From Anaerolineales bacterium (GTDB lineage Bacteria; Chloroflexota; Anaerolineae; Anaerolineales; RBG-16-64-43), in contig JAFGKK010000121.1 in assembly GCA_016928575.1 (NCBI GenBank), positions 1-32,912 of the forward strand: 32,912 bases of DNA, given 5' to 3'. The position numbers and the translations under genes are program-made. The notes below the pieces were generated by a model. It did not search any database and had not been told where the DNA came from. It worked only from the letters and a program-made list of their open reading frames with translations. Shown piece by piece: positions 15,392-26,323 of this stretch. Within the stretch, counting starts at the first letter, position 1; every line of letters begins with the position of its first letter.

Positions 15392-15833
15392 CCCCTGCCT
15401 CGTCTGGCTTCCCCTAGCTTTCCCTCGCTCCGCTCGGGACAGGCGCTCGGGACAGGTTTGGCCGCCTTCTCCCAGCGCACTTGCGCCCGCAATGTCTTTG
15501 CCTCGGCAAATCGCGGATGCTCGTCGATTAAGCGCGGCGGCGGAACGTTTTTCCCCGGAGTGAATGGACGGGAGGTGGGATGAGGGGGAGGCTGAGGAAA
15601 TCCGTCTGTTTCCTGCAAAGAGAAGAATGGGATGATTTGGGGAAGGCATGGGAGGACCGGGGTGTGATTCCCCATAAAACCGGGATTAATACCGTTTCCG
15701 AAAACAATTAATAAGGAAAGGAACGGAAAACAAGCCTATAATCGTCCTTAGATTGTGAAAAACGGGTGAAAAGAAGGTGACAATAATCCGGACGTTTATT
15801 GCCGCGTGGAAAGGAGTGCAATAGAATACCAGC
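15392..15833. other. Intergenic region with repeat fragments and two candidate promoters
   Basis: No gene is supported. A 13-base unit CGCTCGGGACAGG is directly repeated at 15431-15443 and 15444-15456, next to CCCTCGCTCCG. On the minus strand this encodes the peptide CPERSEGK, which I recall from many spurious translations in environmental genomes, so it is probably a dispersed repeat. The right part is AT-rich, with TATAAT at 15737-15742 and the better promoter at 15799-15827. Confidence 0.55.
15799..15827 (+). promoter_or_regulatory. Promoter of the TadE/TadG cluster
   Basis: TTGCCG (15799-15804) and TAGAAT (15822-15827) are separated by exactly 17 bases. The -10 ends six bases before the ATG at 15834. 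This is the only one of the start-proximal boxes with a recognisable -35. It predicts a leaderless or nearly leaderless mRNA for the first tad gene; the downstream genes have normal ribosome sites. Confidence 0.6.
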
Positions 15834-16619
15834 ATGAAGGAATCCAGGATTTCTTGGCGGATTAAACGCACCCGGCGCGCGCGTCCGCGCGGACAGAGCA
15901 TCGTCGAATTCGCGCTAATGCTGCCGATTCTGCTGATCATCCTCTCCGGGCTGTTCGAGTTCGGATTCATTTTCACCCACTACCTCGCCGTGCTGGACGC
16001 GGCGAGGAACGCCGCGCGGTTCTCCTCCGACAGCCAGTACGACATGCGCGACACGGATCCGGACTGCACCAGGCTTAATGACGGGTCGTCGACCCAGGAT
16101 TTCTACCGCCAGACGGCCTGCTTGGCGGTCGACGAACTGATGCTGGAACAACCGACGATCGAACTGTGCCTGCCGGGGATGCTTACACCGGGCTGCTCGG
16201 GGAACTGGGACGACATGGATGATGTCATCGTCTCGGCATTCAGCGTCATGCGGGTCGGTACGACCCAAGTGAAGCGATTCCCGCTGGATGTATTCGGCGG
16301 CGAACTCCTCGACGGGTGGTCGTACGCCTGCGACCTGCGGTATTTCATCGACGGTTCATGCGACCAGTTCAATCCCGCCTTCCGGACTGGGATGCACAAG
16401 ACCGAATTCAGCAACGCCCGGATCATCAGCATGCTGCAGCCCGGCACGCCCAGCACCGGATACGTCCTGGTGGAGATCAAGTACCACTACCATCAGGTCC
16501 TGGCCCTGCCGTGGTTCACGCAGTTCGTGGACGACCCAGTGCGCTTCAACATCTACTCGATTTGGCCGCTGGTATCGGCCGAGCCGACGTCGACCTTCGT
16601 GCCGTCCGCGACGCCGTAG
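15834..16619 (+). CDS. TadE-like pseudopilin-type protein
   Basis: The 261-residue protein has a basic N-terminus ending in RPRGQSIVEFALMLPILLII, the hallmark of TadE-type proteins: G-Q-S-x-V-E-F followed by one membrane helix to about residue 50. The remaining 210 residues are exported, with several cysteines (in DPDC, QTAC, IELC, PGC, YAC and SCDQ) that could form disulphides. The protein ends in a short Ser/Thr/Pro tail (PTSTFVPSATP), a miniature of the long tail on the third gene. TadE proteins are minor pilin-like components of Flp/Tad systems, but no Tad ATPase or secretin is nearby. It is the first gene of a three-gene cluster; the next ORF starts 17 bases downstream. Confidence 0.85.
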   Translation: MKESRISWRIKRTRRARPRGQSIVEFALMLPILLIILSGLFEFGFIFTHYLAVLDAARNAARFSSDSQYDMRDTDPDCTRLNDGSSTQDFYRQTACLAVDELMLEQPTIELCLPGMLTPGCSGNWDDMDDVIVSAFSVMRVGTTQVKRFPLDVFGGELLDGWSYACDLRYFIDGSCDQFNPAFRTGMHKTEFSNARIISMLQPGTPSTGYVLVEIKYHYHQVLALPWFTQFVDDPVRFNIYSIWPLVSAEPTSTFVPSATP

Positions 16620-16636
16620 GTGAGGAGGAAGGCCAG

Positions 16637-18286
16637 ATGAGATTCTTCGACGATTGGCACACCCGCAGGCGGATCCGGTCCGCTGGCCAGGCGTTGATCC
16701 TGATCGTGCTGACCTTTTTCGGCTTGCTGTTTTTCCTCGGGTTGATGGTGGACCTGGGGCAGATCTTCCTCGCCAAAGGCTACCTGCGGCGGGCGGCCGA
16801 CGCCGCCTCGCTCGCTGCTGCGGCCCAATTCCGCGAGAACCGCACAATCGTCGAAATGACCAAGGCCGCGGAAGAGGTGGCGCTGATGAACGGCGTGGCC
16901 CCGACCACGATCCTAGTCGAGACCTGCCAATCGACGGGGGGAACCGACGCGTATTTGTGCCCCGAACCGGGCGAGATGCCGAAGAAGCTTGTGCGGGTAA
17001 CCGTCGTCATGAAGTACCCGATGACCTTCCTGGTCCTGCTGGGGATCAACGACGTCACCCTCCAGGAGGTTTCCGTCAGCGAGGCGGCGGCGATGGACGT
17101 GGTCCTGGTGATCGACGTCTCGGAATCGATGGCCTGGCTGGGGACGACGCCGGAACAGCGCGATCCGTCGATGTGCAATCCGCCGATGGACAACTGCACC
17201 CCGATGCGCGAAGCGAAGGATGCCGCTTTGCAGTTCATCGACCGGCTGTTGAACAAACCCGCCGCGGACGAAGAGGACCGCCTGGCGATCGTCACCTTCG
17301 CCAACGGATGGCAGGGAGGTGAGCGGGGAACGCGGGTTCTGCCCTTGGACGGGGGAACGACCGGGTGGACGAGCGACAACGCGAACGCCAAGAACTGGGT
17401 GAATGGCATCAACGTCTACGATCCGGGAGTCGCGTATATCAACAACGGCAGTCCGTTGCCGGATCCGGTGCCGATCCATCCGGTGCGGATGTACACCGCG
17501 ACGAACGAATTCCAAGGGATGGTCTGCCTGCGCACCCTGGTGGCGGCGGATCCCTCCTCCGATCCCAAAGCGGAGGCGATTTCCGCCTGCGGGACGACCA
17601 ACATCGGCGGCGGCCTGCTGATGGCCGGCAACCAGTTCGCCAAGGCGAAACGGCCCGACGCCTTGTGGGTGGTGGTCCTCCTGACCGACGGGATGGCCAA
17701 CGCCACTTTTGCCACCCGCCAGGATCTGGGGATGGGTCTGCCCGACGAGGCCATCGTCCTGCCGGGAGGCTCGGATCCCGATTATGATTCGGTGATAAAG
17801 ACGGAGGTGATCCCGAATTTCCCGCTGGGATTCTGCCCGAGCGGCACCTGGGACGGGCCGTCGGTGGATCCGGCCTTTTCTTATTGCCAGGATCACGACG
17901 CGAAGAACTACAACTCGCCTACCAGCGGCTCGTACGACGCCGACGATTTCGCCCGGGATATGGGCCGATTCGTCGGCTGTCCGGCGGTCGTCGCCTCGCC
18001 GGCGACCGGATGCGGCTCGACCAAGGGGCAGGGGGCGGTGATCTTCGCCATCGGGCTGGGCGATGAGATCGACCGCCGGGATCCCAACAACTTCGCCTAC
18101 GGAGGCGAACTGCTGAGGTTCATCGCCGCAATCGGCGACGACGGCAACCCGGACACCAACCTGTGCGCCTCGGAGCCCGATTACAAGAAGAATTGCGGCA
18201 ACTACTACTACGCCCAGGAAGGCACGGACCTCGGACCGGTGTTCGAGGCGATCTATTCGCGGATCTTCACCCGGCTGACGGCCTGA
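16637..18286 (+). CDS. TadG-like protein with von Willebrand factor A domain
   Basis: The 549-residue protein begins with the TadG-type N-terminus (AGQALILIVLTFFGLLFFLG, a membrane helix to about residue 40), followed by KGYLRRAADAASLAAA. After about 150 residues a vWA domain starts with VVLVIDVSESM, giving the D-x-S-x-S metal-site signature. It continues with an acidic insert, VVVLLTDGMAN (the second-strand aspartate), and a long C-terminal half with ATGCGSTKGQGAVIFAIGLG. vWA domains bind protein partners through a divalent metal, and in Tad systems they occur in surface TadG proteins. GGAGG lies before the ATG at 16637, which fits both the membrane helix and the spacing after the TadE stop. 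It is the middle gene of the cluster. Confidence 0.85.
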   Translation: MRFFDDWHTRRRIRSAGQALILIVLTFFGLLFFLGLMVDLGQIFLAKGYLRRAADAASLAAAAQFRENRTIVEMTKAAEEVALMNGVAPTTILVETCQSTGGTDAYLCPEPGEMPKKLVRVTVVMKYPMTFLVLLGINDVTLQEVSVSEAAAMDVVLVIDVSESMAWLGTTPEQRDPSMCNPPMDNCTPMREAKDAALQFIDRLLNKPAADEEDRLAIVTFANGWQGGERGTRVLPLDGGTTGWTSDNANAKNWVNGINVYDPGVAYINNGSPLPDPVPIHPVRMYTATNEFQGMVCLRTLVAADPSSDPKAEAISACGTTNIGGGLLMAGNQFAKAKRPDALWVVVLLTDGMANATFATRQDLGMGLPDEAIVLPGGSDPDYDSVIKTEVIPNFPLGFCPSGTWDGPSVDPAFSYCQDHDAKNYNSPTSGSYDADDFARDMGRFVGCPAVVASPATGCGSTKGQGAVIFAIGLGDEIDRRDPNNFAYGGELLRFIAAIGDDGNPDTNLCASEPDYKKNCGNYYYAQEGTDLGPVFEAIYSRIFTRLTA

Positions 18287-18319
18287 GTGCTCCGGACCGG
18301 ACGGAGAAAAGAGGTTACG

Positions 18320-19891
18320 ATGATCACAGAACTGATCCTGGGAATGAAGACCGCCGCCGCCGGGAGCCCCTCCGGAAGGCGGCGCACCCGCGGCCAGTCG
18401 CTGGTGGAGTTCACGCTGGTCCTCCCGGCGCTGCTCTTGCTGATCTTCGGGATCATCGAGTTCGCGCGGATTTTTTATTCCTGGCTGATCGTCACCAACG
18501 CGGTGCGCACCGGAGAGCGCTACGCCGTCACCGGCGACTACATGGAGAAATACTGCGAGGGCGCGCACGGCGCGATCGCGGACAGCCGCGGCGACAACGA
18601 CGGCGATTACTGCGAGAAGATCATCGACACCTCGAATTCCGCGCACGCCCAGGCGCAGGACGAGATGCGGGCCCGGGAGGAGGACTACGCCCGGCTGATG
18701 TCGATCGTCGAGGTCACCAACAACGCCGCCAGCGGGTTGCTGCGGGCGACCGAATCTTCCAGCAACCCCCTGTTCCCCACGGTGGCATTTAAAACCCCGG
18801 GCTACTTCCACATCGTCGTCTGCAGCAACAGCAAGGGATTCGGCTACACCAAGATGGGCAGCGCGGCCGACTGCGAATGCACGCCGCACGACGACGCCGG
18901 CAACCCGATGGAGGGGATGGTCCGGGTGCAGGTGTCGATCACCTTCGAGCATCCGCTGATCATGCCGTTGATCAGCTCGGTCTGGCCGCACATCACCCTG
19001 CACGCCGAGCGCAGCGGCTTCCTCGAGCAGTTCCGCGTGGCGCGCGTGCTGGGGGTGGCGCCGCCCGGAATGCTCTACAACACCAACACCTTCACGCCGA
19101 TCACGCCGACGCTGACGCCGACGATCACCCTCACGCCGACGATCACCGACACGCCGACGATCACGTACACGCCGACCGACACGGCCACCCCGACCTCGAC
19201 CGACACCACGACCAACACCAACACGCCCACCTCGACCAGCACCAACACGCCCACGCGGACGGTCTTCACCAGCACGCCTTCCCACACCCGGACGGCGAGC
19301 CGGACCTACACCCCCTCGCGGACCCGGACCCCGACCCGGACCCGGACGGCCACGCGGACTCAGACGACCACGCCGACGATCACCAACACGCCGACGATCA
19401 CCTACACCCCGTCGCGCACGCTTTCGCCGACGATCACCTACACGCCGTCGATCACCTACACTCCCAGCCGGACCTACACCCGGACGATCACCCGCACGTC
19501 GACGTCCACCCGCACTCCGACGAGAACCCGGACTCCGACGCGGACGCGAACGATCACGTCCACGCCGACGCGCACGTCCACCTATACGATCACGCTGACT
19601 CCCTCGCGCACGTACACCCGGACGCCGGTGACCCCGACCCTGACGCCCACCCGGACCATGACCCGGACGCCGGTGACGCCGACCCTGACGCGCACGCACA
19701 CACAATCTCCTTCGCGCACTCCCGTGATCCCTTCGCAAACGGCGACGCCGACTCCCTCCCGTACGTTGACTCCGTCCGTCACGCGAACCGCAACGCGCTC
19801 GCCGAGCCGGACTCCTTCGCGGACCTATACGCCGGCTTCGCCGACCATGACCCGTACATTGACGCCGTTGCCGACGATGCACATCGGTTGA
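18320..19891 (+). CDS. TadE-like protein with a long Thr/Pro/Arg-rich tail
   Basis: The 523-residue protein starts with a basic stretch and TRGQSLVEFTLVLPALLLLI, the TadE signature with one membrane helix. An exported domain of about 190 residues follows, with a DNDGDY acidic loop and paired cysteines (CSN, CECT). From DNA position about 19082 to the stop, roughly 265 residues form a low-complexity tail. Thr occupies nearly every second position, first as TPTIT/TPT and then as basic TRTPTRT units. Such tails are typical of extracellular stalks in Chloroflexota proteins and may be O-glycosylated; that is inference. No LPXTG motif or second membrane helix ends the tail. The ATG at 18320 is preceded by AAGAGG, preferred over the GTG at 18287. 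Confidence 0.85.
   Translation: MITELILGMKTAAAGSPSGRRRTRGQSLVEFTLVLPALLLLIFGIIEFARIFYSWLIVTNAVRTGERYAVTGDYMEKYCEGAHGAIADSRGDNDGDYCEKIIDTSNSAHAQAQDEMRAREEDYARLMSIVEVTNNAASGLLRATESSSNPLFPTVAFKTPGYFHIVVCSNSKGFGYTKMGSAADCECTPHDDAGNPMEGMVRVQVSITFEHPLIMPLISSVWPHITLHAERSGFLEQFRVARVLGVAPPGMLYNTNTFTPITPTLTPTITLTPTITDTPTITYTPTDTATPTSTDTTTNTNTPTSTSTNTPTRTVFTSTPSHTRTASRTYTPSRTRTPTRTRTATRTQTTTPTITNTPTITYTPSRTLSPTITYTPSITYTPSRTYTRTITRTSTSTRTPTRTRTPTRTRTITSTPTRTSTYTITLTPSRTYTRTPVTPTLTPTRTMTRTPVTPTLTRTHTQSPSRTPVIPSQTATPTPSRTLTPSVTRTATRSPSRTPSRTYTPASPTMTRTLTPLPTMHIG
19082..19888 (+). repeat. Low-complexity tandem coding repeat (Thr-x units)
   Basis: Degenerate repeats of units such as ACGCCGACGATCAC and CGGACCCGGAC encode the Thr-x tail of the third tad gene. 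Because Thr codons alternate with Pro, Ile, Arg and Ser codons, the DNA repeats at roughly six and twelve bases without being exact. The region also yields long open frames on the other strand, which are by-products. Confidence 0.75.
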
Positions 19892-19929: not shown

Positions 19930-19965
19930 GGCCGCGGCGGTCCACCGGACCGCCGCGGCCTTCTT
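19930..19965 (+). terminator. Rho-independent terminator of the tad cluster
   Basis: GGCCGCGGCGGTCC (19930-19943) and GGACCGCCGCGGCC (19947-19960) form a perfect 14-bp stem with a 3-base loop, followed by TTCTT. It lies 38 bases after the stop of the third tad gene and before the histidine kinase, so it should separate the two transcription units. Confidence 0.75.
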
Positions 19966-20087: not shown

Positions 20088-22286
20088 ATGCGCGCCTTGG
20101 ATCGCCGTCTGCTTGCCCGCTGGCTCCCCGTCCTGGTCTTCGGGACGGCGATCCTTTCCTGGATTTGGATCTATTCCCGGTTCCTGCGCTTTTTTTTCTA
20201 CGTCCCCAACCCGTTCCTGCCCCAGCTTACGCTTATCCAATGGCTGACCGGTTTCGCCGCCGCAATCCTGGCTTTGGCCCGGGCGGGGCGGGAAGCCGGC
20301 CCCGACCGGCGCGCCTGGCTGTTCCTCGGAATCGCGTTGACGCTCTGGCCGCTGGCCGACGGGCTGGAGCAGTTCCTTCCGACGCATTGGTCGTTGTTTC
20401 ACAACCTCCTGCCGCGCCCGGCGCATATTGCGGCGTACGGGATGGCGTTCGCCGCGGTGGTTTTCTTCGCGCCGATTCCGCAGGCGCGCTTCGGGCGGCT
20501 GAGGTTCCTGGTGGATATCGTCATCCACGCCGCCTCCTGGGGAGTGCTCCTGTGGTTTCTGCTGGTCGAGCCGGTCCTCAAGCCCTTGCAGGCCACGCTG
20601 GAATTGAGGTTTTGGATCGCGCTGTATGCGATCCTCGATCTGATCCTGCTGATGCTGGTTGTCTGGCTCCAGGGAGGGTCTGAAAGGCCCTCGCGGATGC
20701 TGTGGCTGTTGGCCGGCGGCTATTTCCTGCTCTCCACCCACGATCTGGTCACGGGGTTCCTTGTCTTGCAGGGCGGGGTTCAAGCCTACGTGTATACCGG
20801 CTTCCTGATGGTCGGGGGGTACGCGCTGATTGCCGCGGCTGCATCCGCTTCGCATCCGCGGAACGCCGCCGACGCCGAGCCCTCCCGGGCAGGCGCGGAT
20901 GGATTCCGCCGGCGCTGGCGGCGGATCGAGGAGCGCTGGCTGCCGCTGGTTTCGACCGCGGCGCTGGCGATCTTTTTGGCGGCGGAATGGCGGCGCGTCG
21001 GCCAGGCCGATTCACTGCTCCTGCTGGCCACGCTGGGCCTGAGTCTGCTGCTCTTTCTGCGCGAAGGCATCATCGCCGGCCAGGCGGAAGTGGCCGGGTA
21101 CGCGATGCTGATCGAGCACATCGAGGACCCCGCCTTCATCTGCGACGGCGGGGGACGGATCCTGCTCGACAATCCCCCCTTGCGCAAGCTGCATTCCAGG
21201 GTGCGGGCCTCCGACCGATTGGAGGATCTGCTTCCGGTGAGTCCGGAGTGGGATTTTTTACTCCGCGAAGCCCGAACCGGCGGCTGGGGAGGCGAAGTGT
21301 GGGTGACCTCCTCGGGGCGCGGGTCCTTTCCCGCCTGGTTGGTCCTCCAAACCCTGCCGCGCGTGGAAGGAGGGCGCGAGCGGTACGCCGCACTGCTCCA
21401 CGACCTCTCCCCCCAGCGCCGGCAGGAAGAATCCCTGCGCGAAGCCTACCGCCAGGCCGAAGAATCCCGCCGGGCGCTCGAACGCTTGAGTGCGCAGCTG
21501 GAAGAGAAGGTGGCGGAAAAGACGGCGGATCTTTCCCGGGCGCTCGAACAGCTCGAGGAGCAAAACCGACTCCTGCGGTCGCTCGATCGGCTGAAATCCG
21601 AGTTCGTTGCCCTGACCTCGCATGAGCTGCGCACACCGCTGACGGCGATCGGCGGCGGATTGGAACTGATTGCCGCGCACAAGCAGCCGCTGCCGGCCGG
21701 AATCCGCACAACCCTGGACCTGGTGCGCAAGGAAACCGAACGGCTCAGCCGGTTCGTGGAGAGCATTCTCAACCTCTCGGCACTCGAGTCGGGCCGGATG
21801 CCGTTGCAGATCGGGCCGATGCGGCTGGACGAGGCGCTCGGGCGGGCGCGTTCGGCGCTCGCCGCGGCTCACGGCGGACCGAACAGCCGCAACCTCCGCC
21901 GGCTCAAGATCCGGATTGCGAAGAGCCTGCCGGACGTGGCGGCCGACGAGCATATCCTCTCCAGCGTGTTTTTCCAGCTGATCGACAACGCCTTCAAGTA
22001 CGCGCCCGAAGGCCCGGTGACGGTGACGGCCGAGGCGGAGGGGAGCGGGGTCAAGGTTGTCGTCGCGGACCGCGGACCGGGAATCCCCGCCGAGCACCGG
22101 GATCGGCTGTTCCAAATGTTCTCGCGCTTGGAGGATCGCGACACCCCGCGCGTGCGCGGGGTGGGGCTCGGGCTTTACATATCACGTAAAATGGTGGAGG
22201 CAATGGGCGGGACGATCGAGTTGGCGCCGGCGAAACGCGGCCTTGCGCTATGCATCCGCCTGAGAACGTTCGCCGAGGAGACATGA
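20088..22286 (+). CDS. Membrane sensor histidine kinase
   Basis: The 732-residue protein has about eight membrane segments in the first 330 residues. A PAS-like sensor region follows (about 340-445, IEHIEDPAFICDGGGRILL), then a coiled coil of about 65 residues and the kinase core. The phosphoacceptor is H512 in SHELRTPL. The ATP-binding domain has the N-box with N634 in IDNAFKYAP, then DRGPGIP, LFQMFSR and GVGLGLYI. It should autophosphorylate and pass the phosphate to the regulator encoded next. The large membrane part could sense a lipid, small molecule or membrane state; no ligand is evident. The start at 20088 is set by the TACAAT box and by the arginine-rich residues just before the first membrane segment. 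Confidence 0.93.
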   Translation: MRALDRRLLARWLPVLVFGTAILSWIWIYSRFLRFFFYVPNPFLPQLTLIQWLTGFAAAILALARAGREAGPDRRAWLFLGIALTLWPLADGLEQFLPTHWSLFHNLLPRPAHIAAYGMAFAAVVFFAPIPQARFGRLRFLVDIVIHAASWGVLLWFLLVEPVLKPLQATLELRFWIALYAILDLILLMLVVWLQGGSERPSRMLWLLAGGYFLLSTHDLVTGFLVLQGGVQAYVYTGFLMVGGYALIAAAASASHPRNAADAEPSRAGADGFRRRWRRIEERWLPLVSTAALAIFLAAEWRRVGQADSLLLLATLGLSLLLFLREGIIAGQAEVAGYAMLIEHIEDPAFICDGGGRILLDNPPLRKLHSRVRASDRLEDLLPVSPEWDFLLREARTGGWGGEVWVTSSGRGSFPAWLVLQTLPRVEGGRERYAALLHDLSPQRRQEESLREAYRQAEESRRALERLSAQLEEKVAEKTADLSRALEQLEEQNRLLRSLDRLKSEFVALTSHELRTPLTAIGGGLELIAAHKQPLPAGIRTTLDLVRKETERLSRFVESILNLSALESGRMPLQIGPMRLDEALGRARSALAAAHGGPNSRNLRRLKIRIAKSLPDVAADEHILSSVFFQLIDNAFKYAPEGPVTVTAEAEGSGVKVVVADRGPGIPAEHRDRLFQMFSRLEDRDTPRVRGVGLGLYISRKMVEAMGGTIELAPAKRGLALCIRLRTFAEET

Positions 22287-22966
22287 ATCGGAAGATTCTG
22301 CTGGTGGACGACGACGAATCTCTGCGCCAGGTGATCTCCCAGTACCTGACCCAGGAAGGGTACCGCGTATTCGCGGCCGGATCCGGTGCGCAGGCGCTGC
22401 GGCTCTTCTATGCCGAGCGGCCGGATGCGGTCCTGCTGGACCTGATGATGCCGGGGATGGACGGCTGGGAGGTGTGCGCCCGTCTGCGGGAACTTTCCGA
22501 CGCGCCGATCCTCCTGGTGACGGCTCGCACCTCGCAGGAAGACAAACTGCGCGGCTTCCGGCTGGGAATCGACGACTACCTTTCCAAGCCGTTCAGCCTG
22601 GCCGAGCTGGCGGCCCGACTGCAGGCGGTGCTGGCCCGCAGCCGGAAGCCGCTCGCGGAATCCGAGCGGATTCTGGCCTGGCAGGATCTGCGCATGGACC
22701 TCGGCAAGCGCCAAGTGTGGTGCGGCGGGAAACCCGTCCCGCTCACCCCGACCGAATTCCGACTGCTGGAGATCCTGCTGCGCAAACAGGGCAGCGTGGC
22801 CAGCGAGGAAGAATTGCGCGAGGAAATCTGGGGCAGCGAACGCCCGATAGATTCTTCGGCGGTGCGGCGGTACATCTGGCTTCTGCGCCAGAAGGTCGAA
22901 ATCGATCCGGCCAAACCGGCGCGGGTGCTGGCGGTGCGCGGCGCGGGATACCGCTTGGGGCCGTGA
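22283..22966 (+). CDS. OmpR/PhoB-family response regulator
   Basis: The 227-residue protein has a receiver domain with the acidic pocket at D9-D11 and the phosphorylated aspartate D53 in LLDLMMPGMDG. A conserved Thr lies in LLVTAR and a Lys in YLSKPF. The winged-helix DNA-binding domain follows from about residue 130 (LTPTEFRLLEILLRKQG through VRRYIWLLRQKVE to VRGAGYRLGP). It binds DNA after phosphorylation by the kinase encoded just upstream. The ATG overlaps the kinase stop (ATGA) and GAGGAG lies a few bases before it. The targets are unknown; the adjacent tad cluster and the FHA operon are reasonable candidates by position only. Confidence 0.95.
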   Translation: MNRKILLVDDDESLRQVISQYLTQEGYRVFAAGSGAQALRLFYAERPDAVLLDLMMPGMDGWEVCARLRELSDAPILLVTARTSQEDKLRGFRLGIDDYLSKPFSLAELAARLQAVLARSRKPLAESERILAWQDLRMDLGKRQVWCGGKPVPLTPTEFRLLEILLRKQGSVASEEELREEIWGSERPIDSSAVRRYIWLLRQKVEIDPAKPARVLAVRGAGYRLGP

Positions 22967-23366
22967 GGCCCTCTCATTCTTCCACATACGGGTGGAGAGG
23001 GGGCGGAGGGAACGGACGGTGAGAAGCTGTCAGTAAAAATCCGTGTCAACTCACTCCGATGCAAGTTTTTTTACAGGCCGATAAAAACTTTTCATTCCCC
23101 CCTCATCCCATCCTTCCGCCGCTGTTCCCCGCCGCTCTCGGGACGGGCGTTCCGGGATAAACACTCCCAGCCCACCTCTCACGATTGATGGTTTCGAATA
23201 ATTGCATCCTGGTTCCGCCAATATGGGGCAGGGAAGCCGGTCTCGGCGTAATTCCGGGAAGGGCGCCCGGACCTATCCCGAGCACTTGTCCCAAGCGCCC
23301 GCCGCCAAGAGCCGCCATTCCCTTCCCAAGATTTGCGCCGGGACGGGACTTCTTTTTTTCCTACCC

Positions 23367-23423
23367 CCAACCCTTCCCAACCCTAAGGGTCGACAAGGGT
23401 CGACAAGGGTTGGGAAGGGTTGG
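23367..23423. repeat. Perfect 18-bp inverted repeat with a repeated loop
   Basis: Arms 23367-23384 (CCAACCCTTCCCAACCCT) and 23406-23423 are exact reverse complements. The 21-base loop consists of two exact copies of AAGGGTCGAC plus one base, so the loop repeats resemble the start of the right arm. Slippage or duplication within the arm would explain this. It lies about 120 bases before the FHA promoter box. No T-tract follows, so a simple terminator is not indicated. Confidence 0.75.
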
Positions 23424-23540
23424 ACATTCGTTGGATTCCGCGGTCTTTTCTGCCGTAAAATGCATGTCCCCATTTGTCGCGGATAAATCGGTCGTTCCGA
23501 GTCGGAAGCGATTAGCGAGGCTGCCGAGGGGCGGGTGCGG

Positions 23541-23546
23541 TAGAAT
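23541..23546 (+). promoter_or_regulatory. Candidate -10 box next to the FHA protein start
   Basis: TAGAAT ends seven bases before the ATG at 23554. There is no Shine-Dalgarno between them. No clear -35 is seen. The arrangement matches the boxes at 6476, 13001, 15822 and 20076. Confidence 0.5.
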
Positions 23547-23553
23547 TCTCCCC

Positions 23554-25413
23554 ATGGAGCGGATCCGCCTGCCGGCCGTATTCGCGCTGATCGCAATTCC
23601 ACTCTGCCTCACCCCCTGTTCCGCTTCCGCGGCGGAAGGGGACACGGCCTATCTGTTCGGCCTCGACAACGCCCAATTCCCCCAAATCAGCGCCTTTCTC
23701 TCGGCCACGGACGGGCTCGGCTTCCGCCGGGAAGGGTTGACCGCGGAGCAGGTGACCCTGTGGGAAGACGATTCCCCCGCCCGCAACCTGGGTCTGAAGG
23801 AGGTTCAAACCGGCATGCGGCTAGTCGTCGTTTTGGATCCCGGGCTGGACCTGCTCTACAAGCTTCCCGACGGCGAGGCGCGCATCGACCGGCTGCGCCG
23901 CGCAATGGCCGATTGGCTCGGGACGCTTGGGCAACAGGGGATCGACGATCTGACGCTTGTCACCCCGCAGGGGATCGCCGTATCGCATGCTTCCGATCCG
24001 GAAACGTTCCTGGCCGGCCTGCGGGCGTATGCGCCGAAGATACCGGCGGAGCGGACGCTGGACGCCCTGCTGGTGGATGCGCTCGGGGCCGCGGCCGATC
24101 CGTTGCCGTATCCCGGAATGCGCGCGCTGATGATCGTGTTCTCCGCCTCGAGGCTTTCGCAGGCGGAGGACATCGGCAAAGGATTATGCCCGCGCGCCCG
24201 GGAACTGCACGCCCCGTTGTACGGGATCTGGTCCGGCCGCGTAGAGCCCTCGGCCCAAGCGGATATGGATGCCCTCGCGGGCTTGGCCGAAGAGTGCGGC
24301 GGCTACTCCGTCGCCCTGGAAAGCTCGACCGGGACGGCGACGATGTTGGGGGCCGTTGCCAGCCAGAGGATCCAATACCGGCTGGAGTATCGATCATCGG
24401 CTTCCGATTCCGGAGAACACACCCTCGCCGCCGCGGTGGCGCAGGAGGATTTCCAGGCCGAGACGGAGCCTCTGCGGTTTTCGCTGGCGGTCCAGCCGCC
24501 GGCGGTCGAATGGATCGATTTTCCGGAGCGGATAAGCCGCAAAGGAAGCGAGGTCTCCACTCACGTGGACGCCTATCTGCCCGGCGCCGTCGATTTGCGG
24601 GTCGAAGTCGTCTTTCCCGACGGGCACCCGCGGGAGATCGTCGCCATGCAGCTGTTTGCGGACGGAGAGTTGATCGAAGGGGAATGCCTGGGGAATCCGT
24701 GCCGCGGGATCCGCTTGGATTTGCGCCGGTACCCCTCGACGGCGACGATCCGCCTGCAGATGGTGGTCCGCGACGAACTCGGGCTGGAGGGAAAATCGGA
24801 GGAGCGGAAGCTTTGGCTTGCGGTGGAGCGTCCCGCGTTGTGGGATGTCTTCCGCCAACAATACCTTGTGCCGGCGGCGGTCATCCTGGGAGCGGCGGCG
24901 GCGGCCGGGATTCTGACCGCGACGCTGGTCAACCTGAACCGGATCCGCGCCGTGCGTGCGGCGGACGGATTGATCTTCCCGAACGCCGCCCCGGCGGCCG
25001 TGGTTCCGGGATCGGATCTGGCATCGCGCTTCGGCATCCGAAGGCGCAGGAAACGCTTCCCGGCCGAATCCCCGGCGGAGACCTACGCCGTGCTGGAAGA
25101 GCTCGGGGAAAGCGGCCGGCGTTACGAACTTACCGCCGAGGATGTGATCGTCGGCCGGGATCCGCGGGCGGCCGGGATCGTGCTGAACGATCCGTCGGTC
25201 TCTCCGCGCCACGGGCGGATCGTGCGCATGGGCGACGGGAGCCCGTGGATCTTCGATTTGGGATCGGCCGCGGGCTGCTGGAAGAATTTTGAGGAAGTTC
25301 CGCCGGAGGGGGCCTCCCTCCGGCAAGGGGACCGGTTGAATTTCGGACGGGCCGCGTTCCGCGTGCGGCTCAAGCCGCTCCCCGCCGGAAAGGAGATCCT
25401 CCATGAAGCGTAA
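23554..25413 (+). CDS. Secreted vWA-like and cytoplasmic FHA domain membrane protein
   Basis: The 619-residue protein has a signal peptide (residues 1-27, cleavage likely after SASA). An extracytoplasmic part of about 410 residues comprises a vWA-like domain and a beta-rich domain. A membrane helix at about 440-462 (YLVPAAVILGAAAAAGILTA) and a C-terminal FHA domain (about 525-605) follow. In the vWA-like domain the metal-site signature is degenerate (LDPGLD instead of D-x-S-x-S). FHA hallmarks are present: VIVGRDP, then VSPRHGRIV, then GSAAGCWKN. FHA domains bind phosphothreonine peptides, so the protein could relay an outside signal to a kinase/phosphatase system. Its stop overlaps the PP2C gene by 11 bases. 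Start chosen at 23554 for the TAGAAT box and the immediate signal peptide. Confidence 0.85.
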   Translation: MERIRLPAVFALIAIPLCLTPCSASAAEGDTAYLFGLDNAQFPQISAFLSATDGLGFRREGLTAEQVTLWEDDSPARNLGLKEVQTGMRLVVVLDPGLDLLYKLPDGEARIDRLRRAMADWLGTLGQQGIDDLTLVTPQGIAVSHASDPETFLAGLRAYAPKIPAERTLDALLVDALGAAADPLPYPGMRALMIVFSASRLSQAEDIGKGLCPRARELHAPLYGIWSGRVEPSAQADMDALAGLAEECGGYSVALESSTGTATMLGAVASQRIQYRLEYRSSASDSGEHTLAAAVAQEDFQAETEPLRFSLAVQPPAVEWIDFPERISRKGSEVSTHVDAYLPGAVDLRVEVVFPDGHPREIVAMQLFADGELIEGECLGNPCRGIRLDLRRYPSTATIRLQMVVRDELGLEGKSEERKLWLAVERPALWDVFRQQYLVPAAVILGAAAAAGILTATLVNLNRIRAVRAADGLIFPNAAPAAVVPGSDLASRFGIRRRRKRFPAESPAETYAVLEELGESGRRYELTAEDVIVGRDPRAAGIVLNDPSVSPRHGRIVRMGDGSPWIFDLGSAAGCWKNFEEVPPEGASLRQGDRLNFGRAAFRVRLKPLPAGKEILHEA

Positions 25414-26323
25414 AGACTCGCCTCGGTTGGAAACGGCGGCGGATTCGCACATCGGCCAGGTGCGGACGAACAACGAAGACCGCTTCGCAGTGGTCCCTTT
25501 GGAATGCAACGGGGTGAGGAGCGTATTGGCCCTGGTGGCCGACGGCGTAGGCGGGCATGCCGCAGGCGAGGTGGCTTCGCAGACGGCGGTGGAGACGGCG
25601 GTGAACGCGGTGCGCGCCGATCCGTGCGCCAATCCGGTGAAGGTCCTGCCGGAAGCCGTGATCCGCGCGGGGCAGGCGGTGTTCTCACAAGCCGCGAAGG
25701 ATCCGGCCTTGCGGGGGATGGCCACCACGCTGGCGGCCGTCTGGGTGGTCGGGAGGCGGCTCTACAGCATCACCGTCGGCGATAGCCGGATCTATATGCG
25801 GCGGAAGGGAATTACATTCCAAGCCAGCGTCGATCACACTTGGGTCCAGGAAGCGGTGGAGCACGGATTGCTCACGCCCGACCAGGCCCATATGCATCCG
25901 AACGCGCACGTTCTGCGCCGGCATCTGGGCGGGGAGAAGGATCCACAGCCGGATCCGCGCCTACGGATCTCTCCGGACGAGCCGCTTCCGGAATCCGCCG
26001 AGCATCAGGGGATGACGATGGAAGACGGGGACGCGCTGGTGCTGTGCACCGACGGCTTGAGCGACCTGGTGCAGGCGGAGGACATCGGCCGGGCGCTGCG
26101 CCACAGACGGCTGGAGCGCACGATTCAGGAGCTGATCGAACTCGCGCGGCGGCGCGGAGGGCACGACAACATCACGGTGGCGGCGCTGCGATTCCCGGCG
26201 GCGGAAGCGTTCGGGCCGTTTCCGAATTGGCTCCGCCGGATTGTGGTGTTCGGCCTTTCCGCCCTGATCCTGGCCGCGGCGGCCGTCGCCGCCTATGCAA
26301 TCCTTTTAGCCCCGGGACGTTAA
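25403..26323 (+). CDS. PP2C-family serine/threonine protein phosphatase, membrane-anchored
   Basis: The 306-residue protein carries the PP2C motifs in order: GQVRTNNEDRF (metal Asp), LVADGVGGHAAGEVAS (two metal positions), GMATTLAAVWV, VGDSRIY, CTDGLSDLV and GGHDNITVAALRF. It should dephosphorylate Ser/Thr residues using Mn or Mg. The C-terminus ends in a membrane helix (VVFGLSALILAAAAVAAYAI), so the catalytic domain lies on the cytoplasmic side near the FHA domain of its partner. Its ATG overlaps the upstream gene by 11 bases and is preceded by AAAGGAG, indicating coupled translation. No Ser/Thr kinase gene is present in the window, although kinases often accompany this pair. Confidence 0.93.
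   Translation: MKRKDSPRLETAADSHIGQVRTNNEDRFAVVPLECNGVRSVLALVADGVGGHAAGEVASQTAVETAVNAVRADPCANPVKVLPEAVIRAGQAVFSQAAKDPALRGMATTLAAVWVVGRRLYSITVGDSRIYMRRKGITFQASVDHTWVQEAVEHGLLTPDQAHMHPNAHVLRRHLGGEKDPQPDPRLRISPDEPLPESAEHQGMTMEDGDALVLCTDGLSDLVQAEDIGRALRHRRLERTIQELIELARRRGGHDNITVAALRFPAAEAFGPFPNWLRRIVVFGLSALILAAAAVAAYAILLAPGR

Follow-up and report, generated by a model that had tools for sequence, protein, structure and literature searches.

In Myxococcus, the minor pilins TadE, TadF and TadG form Kil Tip complexes, and three further paralogous tip clusters are reported from the genome (PMC12075869). In the Caulobacter protein CpaL, a pilin-like module is joined to a vWA domain that bears a MIDAS and is split by an insert; CpaL was modelled at the Tad pilus tip together with CpaJ and CpaK (PMC12607857). 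For the Chloroflexales, in which Tad-type pili were proposed to serve surface motility, a gene list reading 'rcpC-tadZABC, tadEEG, and flp' has been given (PMC7332563), and for the Anaerolineales, in which such pili were proposed to function in aggregation, a cluster PilA-CpaB-CpaE-CpaF-TadB-TadC, with no tip genes listed in the accessible text (PMC4877987). Tad genes were furthermore found in most MAGs of another study, the accessible part of which gives no tip detail (PMC10746286). As far as these reports could be consulted, the basic idea put forward below is already known from the Kil Tips, CpaL, and the Chloroflexales tadEEG list (PMC12075869, PMC12607857, PMC7332563). What is new here is the recurrent split of tip and motor genes, the Glu5 pattern, the conservation of the MIDAS, and the variable stalk; the vWA domain, the stalk, its inserts, and an order-wide separation are not described in the accessible parts of PMC7332563, PMC4877987, and PMC13319060, and a limited literature search returned no paper on a PA14 domain with a minor pilin, nor on TadG with Chloroflexota.

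The window analysed here (32,912 nucleotides) is the whole contig C121 of an Anaerolineales draft genome (3.84 Mb, 96.9% complete). It contains three same-strand ORFs, separated by gaps of 17 and 33 bases, that encode TadE1, TadG, and TadE2 (Table 1); the first-pass annotation had already described them as three adjoining genes, and its outer coordinates (15834-19891) are correct. They most likely encode an adhesive pilus tip whose motor is found elsewhere in the genome, a split that recurs in the relatives examined, and we regard it as likely that they form a tip cluster detached from the motor genes of its Tad (Flp) pilus, which lie on contig C68. Both TadE proteins exceed the Pfam cut-off of 22.9 bits (47.7 for TadE1 and 56.7 for TadE2), as does the PF13400 (Tad N-terminus) match of TadG (35.2 bits, cut-off 22.3). 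The best starts of TadG and TadE2 are ATG 16637 and ATG 18320, respectively, the mechanical ORF start of TadG being GTG 16316. The strong terminator proposed for the end of the unit could be confirmed as a perfect stem that stands out against shuffles (stem-loop span 19930-19960), with a short T run (TTCTT), and was not listed by a consensus scan. The proposed promoter, in contrast, was dropped, as one sigma-70-like site was found versus 0.9 expected by chance. Upstream of TadE1, a gap of 442 bases is followed by a gene whose Pfam match is of glycoside-hydrolase type. Neither ARAGORN nor Rfam (gathering) reported anything in the window.

Table 1. Features of the three-gene unit and its surroundings (positions in the window).
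Feature	Position	Strand	Basis or remark
Promoter-like site TTGCCG-17-TAGAAT	15799..15827	+	Consensus scan, chance level
TadE1 minor pilin, 261 aa, G↓QSIVE (Glu at +5)	15834..16619	+	Pfam TadE 1.7e-12
TadG, pilin-like helix and sheet, then vWA, 549 aa, G↓QALIL (Leu at +5)	16637..18286	+	Pfam Tad 1.6e-8, VWA_2 3.7e-7; model
MIDAS motif 1, DVSES, TadG residues 160-164 (D160, S162, S164)	17114..17128	+	Aligned TadG
MIDAS motif 2 threonine (T320/T321 of TTNIGGG)	17594..17599	+	Aligned TadG
MIDAS motif 3 aspartate (D351 of LLTDG)	17687..17689	+	Aligned TadG
TadE2, TadE pilin head and Thr/Pro stalk, 523 aa, G↓QSLVE (Glu at +5)	18320..19891	+	Pfam TadE 2.6e-15
Thr/Pro-rich stalk, TadE2 residues 255-523, without insert	19082..19888	+	Composition, insert scan, 18-base DNA repeats
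Terminator-like hairpin, perfect 14-bp stem, 3-base loop, then TTCTT	19930..19965	+	-34.7 kcal/mol, z -4.85 vs shuffles
Histidine kinase, possible functional neighbour beyond the hairpin	20088..22286	+	Pfam HisKA/HATPase_c; start ATG 20088 picked by eye
OmpR-type response regulator adjoining the kinase	22250..22966	+	Pfam Response_reg, Trans_reg_C

The cluster resembles the Kil Tip clusters, as laid out in the accessible text, in comprising three minor pilins, one of them large with a C-terminal display domain, and in its many predicted disulfides (PMC12075869). It differs from them in that TadF is absent and TadE present twice, that a vWA domain replaces the KilN domain, and that a Thr/Pro stalk is present; a killing function is not implied. 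TadG resembles CpaL in that a pilin-like module is fused to a MIDAS-bearing vWA domain; unlike CpaL, however, it is encoded in one operon with two TadE partners and lacks a G-X4-E/F site. One of these partners, TadE2, is stalked, and no such partner is mentioned for CpaL in the accessible text (PMC12607857).

Genome-wide searches returned no T2SSE, T2SSF, or Peptidase_A24 match on C121, and the earlier description of the module as an orphan, with no Tad ATPase or prepilin peptidase gene adjacent, thus holds for this neighbourhood. It does not hold for the genome, as other contigs carry Flp matches, three T2SSE matches over the cut-off (C68, C22, and C118; five matches in total), and the only A24 prepilin peptidase (C92), which is probably the one used by this pilus. 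On C68, a regulator-like ORF (by eye), a kinase, an Flp pilin, CpaB, CpaE, CpaF, TadB, and TadC follow in a row, so that motor, platform, pilin, and peptidase of a Tad pilus system are all present in the genome (C68 and C92). The Tad-like locus on C118 is divergent and has a T2SSE match over the cut-off, a T2SSF match, and, alone among the three motor contigs, a TadE match; the neighbours of the C22 ATPase appear TadB/TadC-like by eye, without Pfam support. A complete tad locus with similar genes was not seen elsewhere, and a simple duplicate was ruled out, since Pfam finds neither TadE nor Tad in the C68 motor locus and the window TadG, used as query against its own genome, matches only itself. 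Further TadE matches are located on C9, C72, and C74 (two), the latter two contigs also matching Tad (PF13400); none of these TadE/Tad loci is found by the TadG query, and C9, C72, and C74 have no T2SSE or T2SSF match.

These minor loci have features of their own. On C9, C74, and C72 (L018, L019, and L020), three pairs of short ORFs of ~130 to 180 aa were noticed, the first of which has a TadE match and the second, on C72 and C74 only, a Tad match. The small divergent machine on C118 (L017 1-9312) includes a secreted protein containing Thr/Pro stretches and a membrane ORF of 201 aa, which has no Pfam match and, judged by eye, may be a peptidase. On C22 (L021 303-5111), the ATPase is adjoined by two large proteins that appear to be secreted and, by eye, contain repeated segments.

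The neighbourhood in related genomes was assessed from 40 TadG loci picked from the listed matches and 49 loci obtained by a two-pattern scan of further, named genomes, which after deduplication gave 75 loci (70 after removal of five weak ones). By their titles, of which three less familiar names were checked, all 49 scan loci stem from Chloroflexota groups, as sampled with patterns built from close relatives; a TadG homolog is present, for instance, in the culturable Anaerolinea thermolimosa IMO-1. Among loci with at least 900 bases of flank, a TadE gene was found upstream of TadG in 65 of 66 and downstream in 64 of 64; 60 loci had this length on both sides, and 59 of them have TadE on both. 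The TadE-TadG-TadE order thus recurs, and so does the lack of motor genes nearby: relatives of CpaF, TadB, or TadC above 40 bits were found at none of the 75 loci (flanks of up to about 10 kb, often less at contig ends), that is, the minor pilins do not lie beside ATPase and TadB/C as in a canonical tad locus. Conversely, 20 motor loci chosen from 121 CpaF-positive genomes gave no TadE/TadG match in a single-sequence search, which divergent copies could escape. In two single-contig genomes, the TadG and motor loci are ~206 kb (G014) and 53 kb (G102) apart, and the split can thus not be an assembly artefact there. Speaking against its generality, the Tad operon of Litorilinea aerophila, a member of another Chloroflexota class (Caldilineae), includes tadE, according to the accessible text (PMC13319060). 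At seven loci (L064, L068, L096, L097, L099, L100, and L101), a second cluster of two TadE-like genes and a third ORF was observed just upstream of the main module; in L099, the third ORF matches Tad and, below the cut-off, DUF7305.

Tip and motor genes also tend to occur in the same genomes. Among 151 genomes, a TadG profile of 32 rows had matches in 68 at E ≤ 1e-30, and a single-protein TadG search in 110 at E ≤ 0.001. A C68-like CpaF (E ≤ 1e-60) was present in 66 of the 68 TadG-positive versus 55 of the 83 TadG-negative genomes (Fisher p 8e-7, ignoring phylogeny). As this cut admits a second ATPase group of about 60% identity, a stricter one (best E ≤ 1e-190) was also applied, which gave 59 of 68 versus 49 of 83 (Fisher p 2e-4, again ignoring phylogeny). 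With the single-protein TadG search, 107 genomes had both genes, 3 only TadG, 14 only CpaF, and 27 neither. Altogether, C68-like CpaF is found in 121 of the 151 genomes (108 at the strict cut); 55 of them have no strong TadG match, 41 with a weaker match and 14 with none. Two TadG-positive drafts, G066 and G125, gave no CpaF match, and families f9 and f15 have no member in either positive list.

A further argument comes from position +5 of the predicted processing site. A prepilin-peptidase-type site, G/A-X4-E/F, is predicted from sequence in both TadE proteins. In aligned columns, which were used for TadG and TadE2 because in some ORFs a regular expression locked onto an incorrect G/A-Q, TadE2 has Glu at +5 in 54 of 54 homologs, and TadG, with Leu in the window, has a hydrophobic residue (L/I/V) in 69 of 69. 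The regular expression itself found Glu at +5 in 63 of 65 TadE2 ORFs, both misses having Glu by eye, and in 51 of 68 TadE1 ORFs, where 14 of the 17 misses have Glu by eye and three are fragments without N-terminus; a similar expression over 260 residues matched 14 of 70 TadG ORFs. Since the two TadE proteins keep Glu5, they appear better read as pilin subunits than as the mere helpers that had been suggested. TadG, for its part, lacks the G/A-X4-F/E site seen in CpaL and was therefore not filed as a CpaL ortholog.

For the first subunit of a filament, three signatures have been proposed, namely a hydrophobic position 5, being the largest minor pilin, and encoding by the last (3') gene of the cluster (PMC5207764, accessible part). 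Compared with this GspK-type pattern, TadG has the hydrophobic residue throughout; it exceeds TadE2 in the window (549 versus 523 aa), but the TadE2 ORF is the longer one in 48 of 65 loci, and TadG is the middle gene of its cluster rather than the 3' one. As two of the three signatures fit poorly, we infer, rather than read off, a position of TadG at the very tip with the TadE proteins behind it.

The predicted model of TadG (mean pLDDT 63.8, i. e., middling) comprises a long N-terminal helix (residues 15-66), a second helix, a three-stranded sheet (strands within 91-150), and a vWA domain aligned over 148-549, with much of 354-436 and 471-529 of low confidence; a pilin-like helix and sheet joined to a MIDAS-bearing vWA domain are thus predicted within one protein. 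The metal-site motif pointed out earlier, DVSES, is indeed intact, and the window TadG carries the complete MIDAS residue set (D160, S162, S164, T321, and D351). Across 70 aligned TadG sequences, D160 and S162 are invariant (70/70 each), S164 is present in 69, position 321 is Thr in 62 and Ser in 6 (68/70), and D351 is Asp in 61 with other residues in 9. Eight rows of the 32-row alignment, six from family f11 and two from f12, do not have this aspartate. Six cysteines are conserved in 66 to 69 of the 70. The best VIA-align match to the model is the vWA domain of the pilus-tip protein Mfa5 (Z 16.0, rmsd 3.6, 207 aligned); human CMG2 and others, among them non-pilus vWA domains, score within 1 Z unit of it and are thus tied with it. 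Foldseek (E ≤ 0.001) returned Mfa5 (two entries), SpaC, and human CMG2, and a sequence-profile search listed a mussel thread protein first, 7w6b second, and RrgA third. Mfa5, SpaC, and RrgA are pilus proteins with the vWA fold that is predicted for TadG, and non-pilus domains such as CMG2 score equally; the Mfa5 pilus is of type V by its PDB title, not Tad, and SpaC and RrgA belong to other pilus types as well.

The stalk-like tail that had been noted for the third protein is borne out by its composition: the C-terminal 269 residues of TadE2 consist of 42% Thr and 14% Pro. The TadE2 head is modelled with a mean pLDDT of 81 and has no significant match in a PDB search. Among 54 TadE2 proteins (including L149 and L150, which look frame-damaged at the C-terminus and were kept in the counts), 47 contain non-stalk inserts of at least 50 residues by a composition cut, six have a bare stalk (the window, G003, G001, G117, G051, and L128), and one, L150, has none. 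Domains identified on the 54 are PA14 in 9, GLEYA in 6, GH115_C in 2, and DUF1349 in 1. By its sequence, the window stalk thus appears to be a spacer without its usual load. A cysteine within the last four residues, often in the ending DC, was observed in 19 of the 54, not including the window protein.

In the arrangement that we propose, Flp, CpaB, CpaE/TadZ, CpaF/TadA, TadB, and TadC of C68 would constitute the pilus motor for a single tip assembled from the three proteins, and the C92 peptidase would process its substrates. TadG would be the first, tip-most subunit, with its pilin helix packed against those of both TadE proteins, and would nucleate the Flp filament and present a metal-dependent vWA adhesion domain, to which TadE2 would add a long, possibly glycosylated Thr/Pro stalk that bears inserts in most relatives, some of a sugar-binding type. 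The earlier suggestion of a surface-displayed adhesive assembly fits here and agrees with the vWA matches, which include pilus-tip adhesins tied with non-pilus domains, with the MIDAS, and with PA14 and GLEYA on the TadE2 proteins of some relatives; the module is, however, not machine-less, a Tad motor being present in the genome. As a candidate tip for the Anaerolineales Tad pilus, the detached module explains how operon-based annotation can miss tip genes, and it provides a testable rule: the order TadE-TadG-TadE with Glu5 in both TadE proteins and a hydrophobic residue in TadG. More tentatively, and with rather less confidence, one may picture a standardised tip cassette, detached from the motor genes and common to the pili of Chloroflexota, with a metal-dependent TadG vWA cap without Glu5 and TadE2 as a swappable display arm, here a bare, probably glycosylated stalk, and that the adjacent kinase-regulator pair reads contact. 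If true, PA14, GLEYA, and other domains would be gained and lost within Thr/Pro spacers, and a single gene could retune the adhesive specificity of a conserved motor.

The genes 3' of the hairpin encode the histidine kinase, the OmpR-type regulator, and, beyond these, an FHA protein and a PP2C phosphatase. In a rival reading, the three proteins would never become part of a pilus; anchored in the cytoplasmic membrane, they would act as a stalked adhesin or sensor of surface contact and signal to the kinase and regulator. A kinase relative above 200 bits lies downstream of the module on the same strand at 8 of the 75 loci and the regulator at 7, both counts including the window, with members of families f1, f10, and f13 among these loci; moreover, the pilin-vWA protein CpaL was itself proposed to be a mechanosensor (PMC12607857, accessible part). 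Such a kinase is, however, not seen within the available flanks of the other 67 loci, some of which lie on short contigs, TadG co-occurs with the Tad ATPase, and Glu5, which both TadE proteins keep, would seem needless for a mere membrane anchor. We therefore consider a purely membrane-bound sensor unlikely.

The same ATPase survey bears on whether the module serves the Tad-like machine of C118 or C22 instead of that of C68. Each of these has a T2SSE match over the cut-off, C118 in addition T2SSF and TadE, and the C22-type ATPase (E ≤ 1e-60) is over-represented in TadG-positive genomes (15 of its 22; p 0.02, ignoring phylogeny). This type is nevertheless limited to those 22 of the 151 genomes, and the C118 type (E ≤ 1e-40) to 3, against the far more frequent C68 type; G001, a genome of the same genus, and G003 have the module but no C22-type match, and C118 has a TadE of its own. 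On these search results, neither of the other two types would be frequent enough to work with the module throughout these relatives, whereas the C68 type would, and its frequency, set against the scarcity of the other two, makes it the candidate motor; service to C118 or C22 is accordingly improbable. Lastly, the missing inserts, present in 47 of 54 TadE2 proteins, could hint that the unit is a non-functional remnant of a Tad locus, left by decay or duplication. Three open frames, a TadG that is single in the genome, near-invariant MIDAS residues and cysteines, and a gene order shared across related families all argue against this, and we deem it very improbable. A detached tip of the C68 pilus therefore remains the preferred reading.

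Beyond the regulator, the window carries a pair of an FHA-domain protein and a PP2C phosphatase (23185-26323), which is likewise found near the module in G001 (L089), and PP2C relatives are also present in the G026 and G016 loci.
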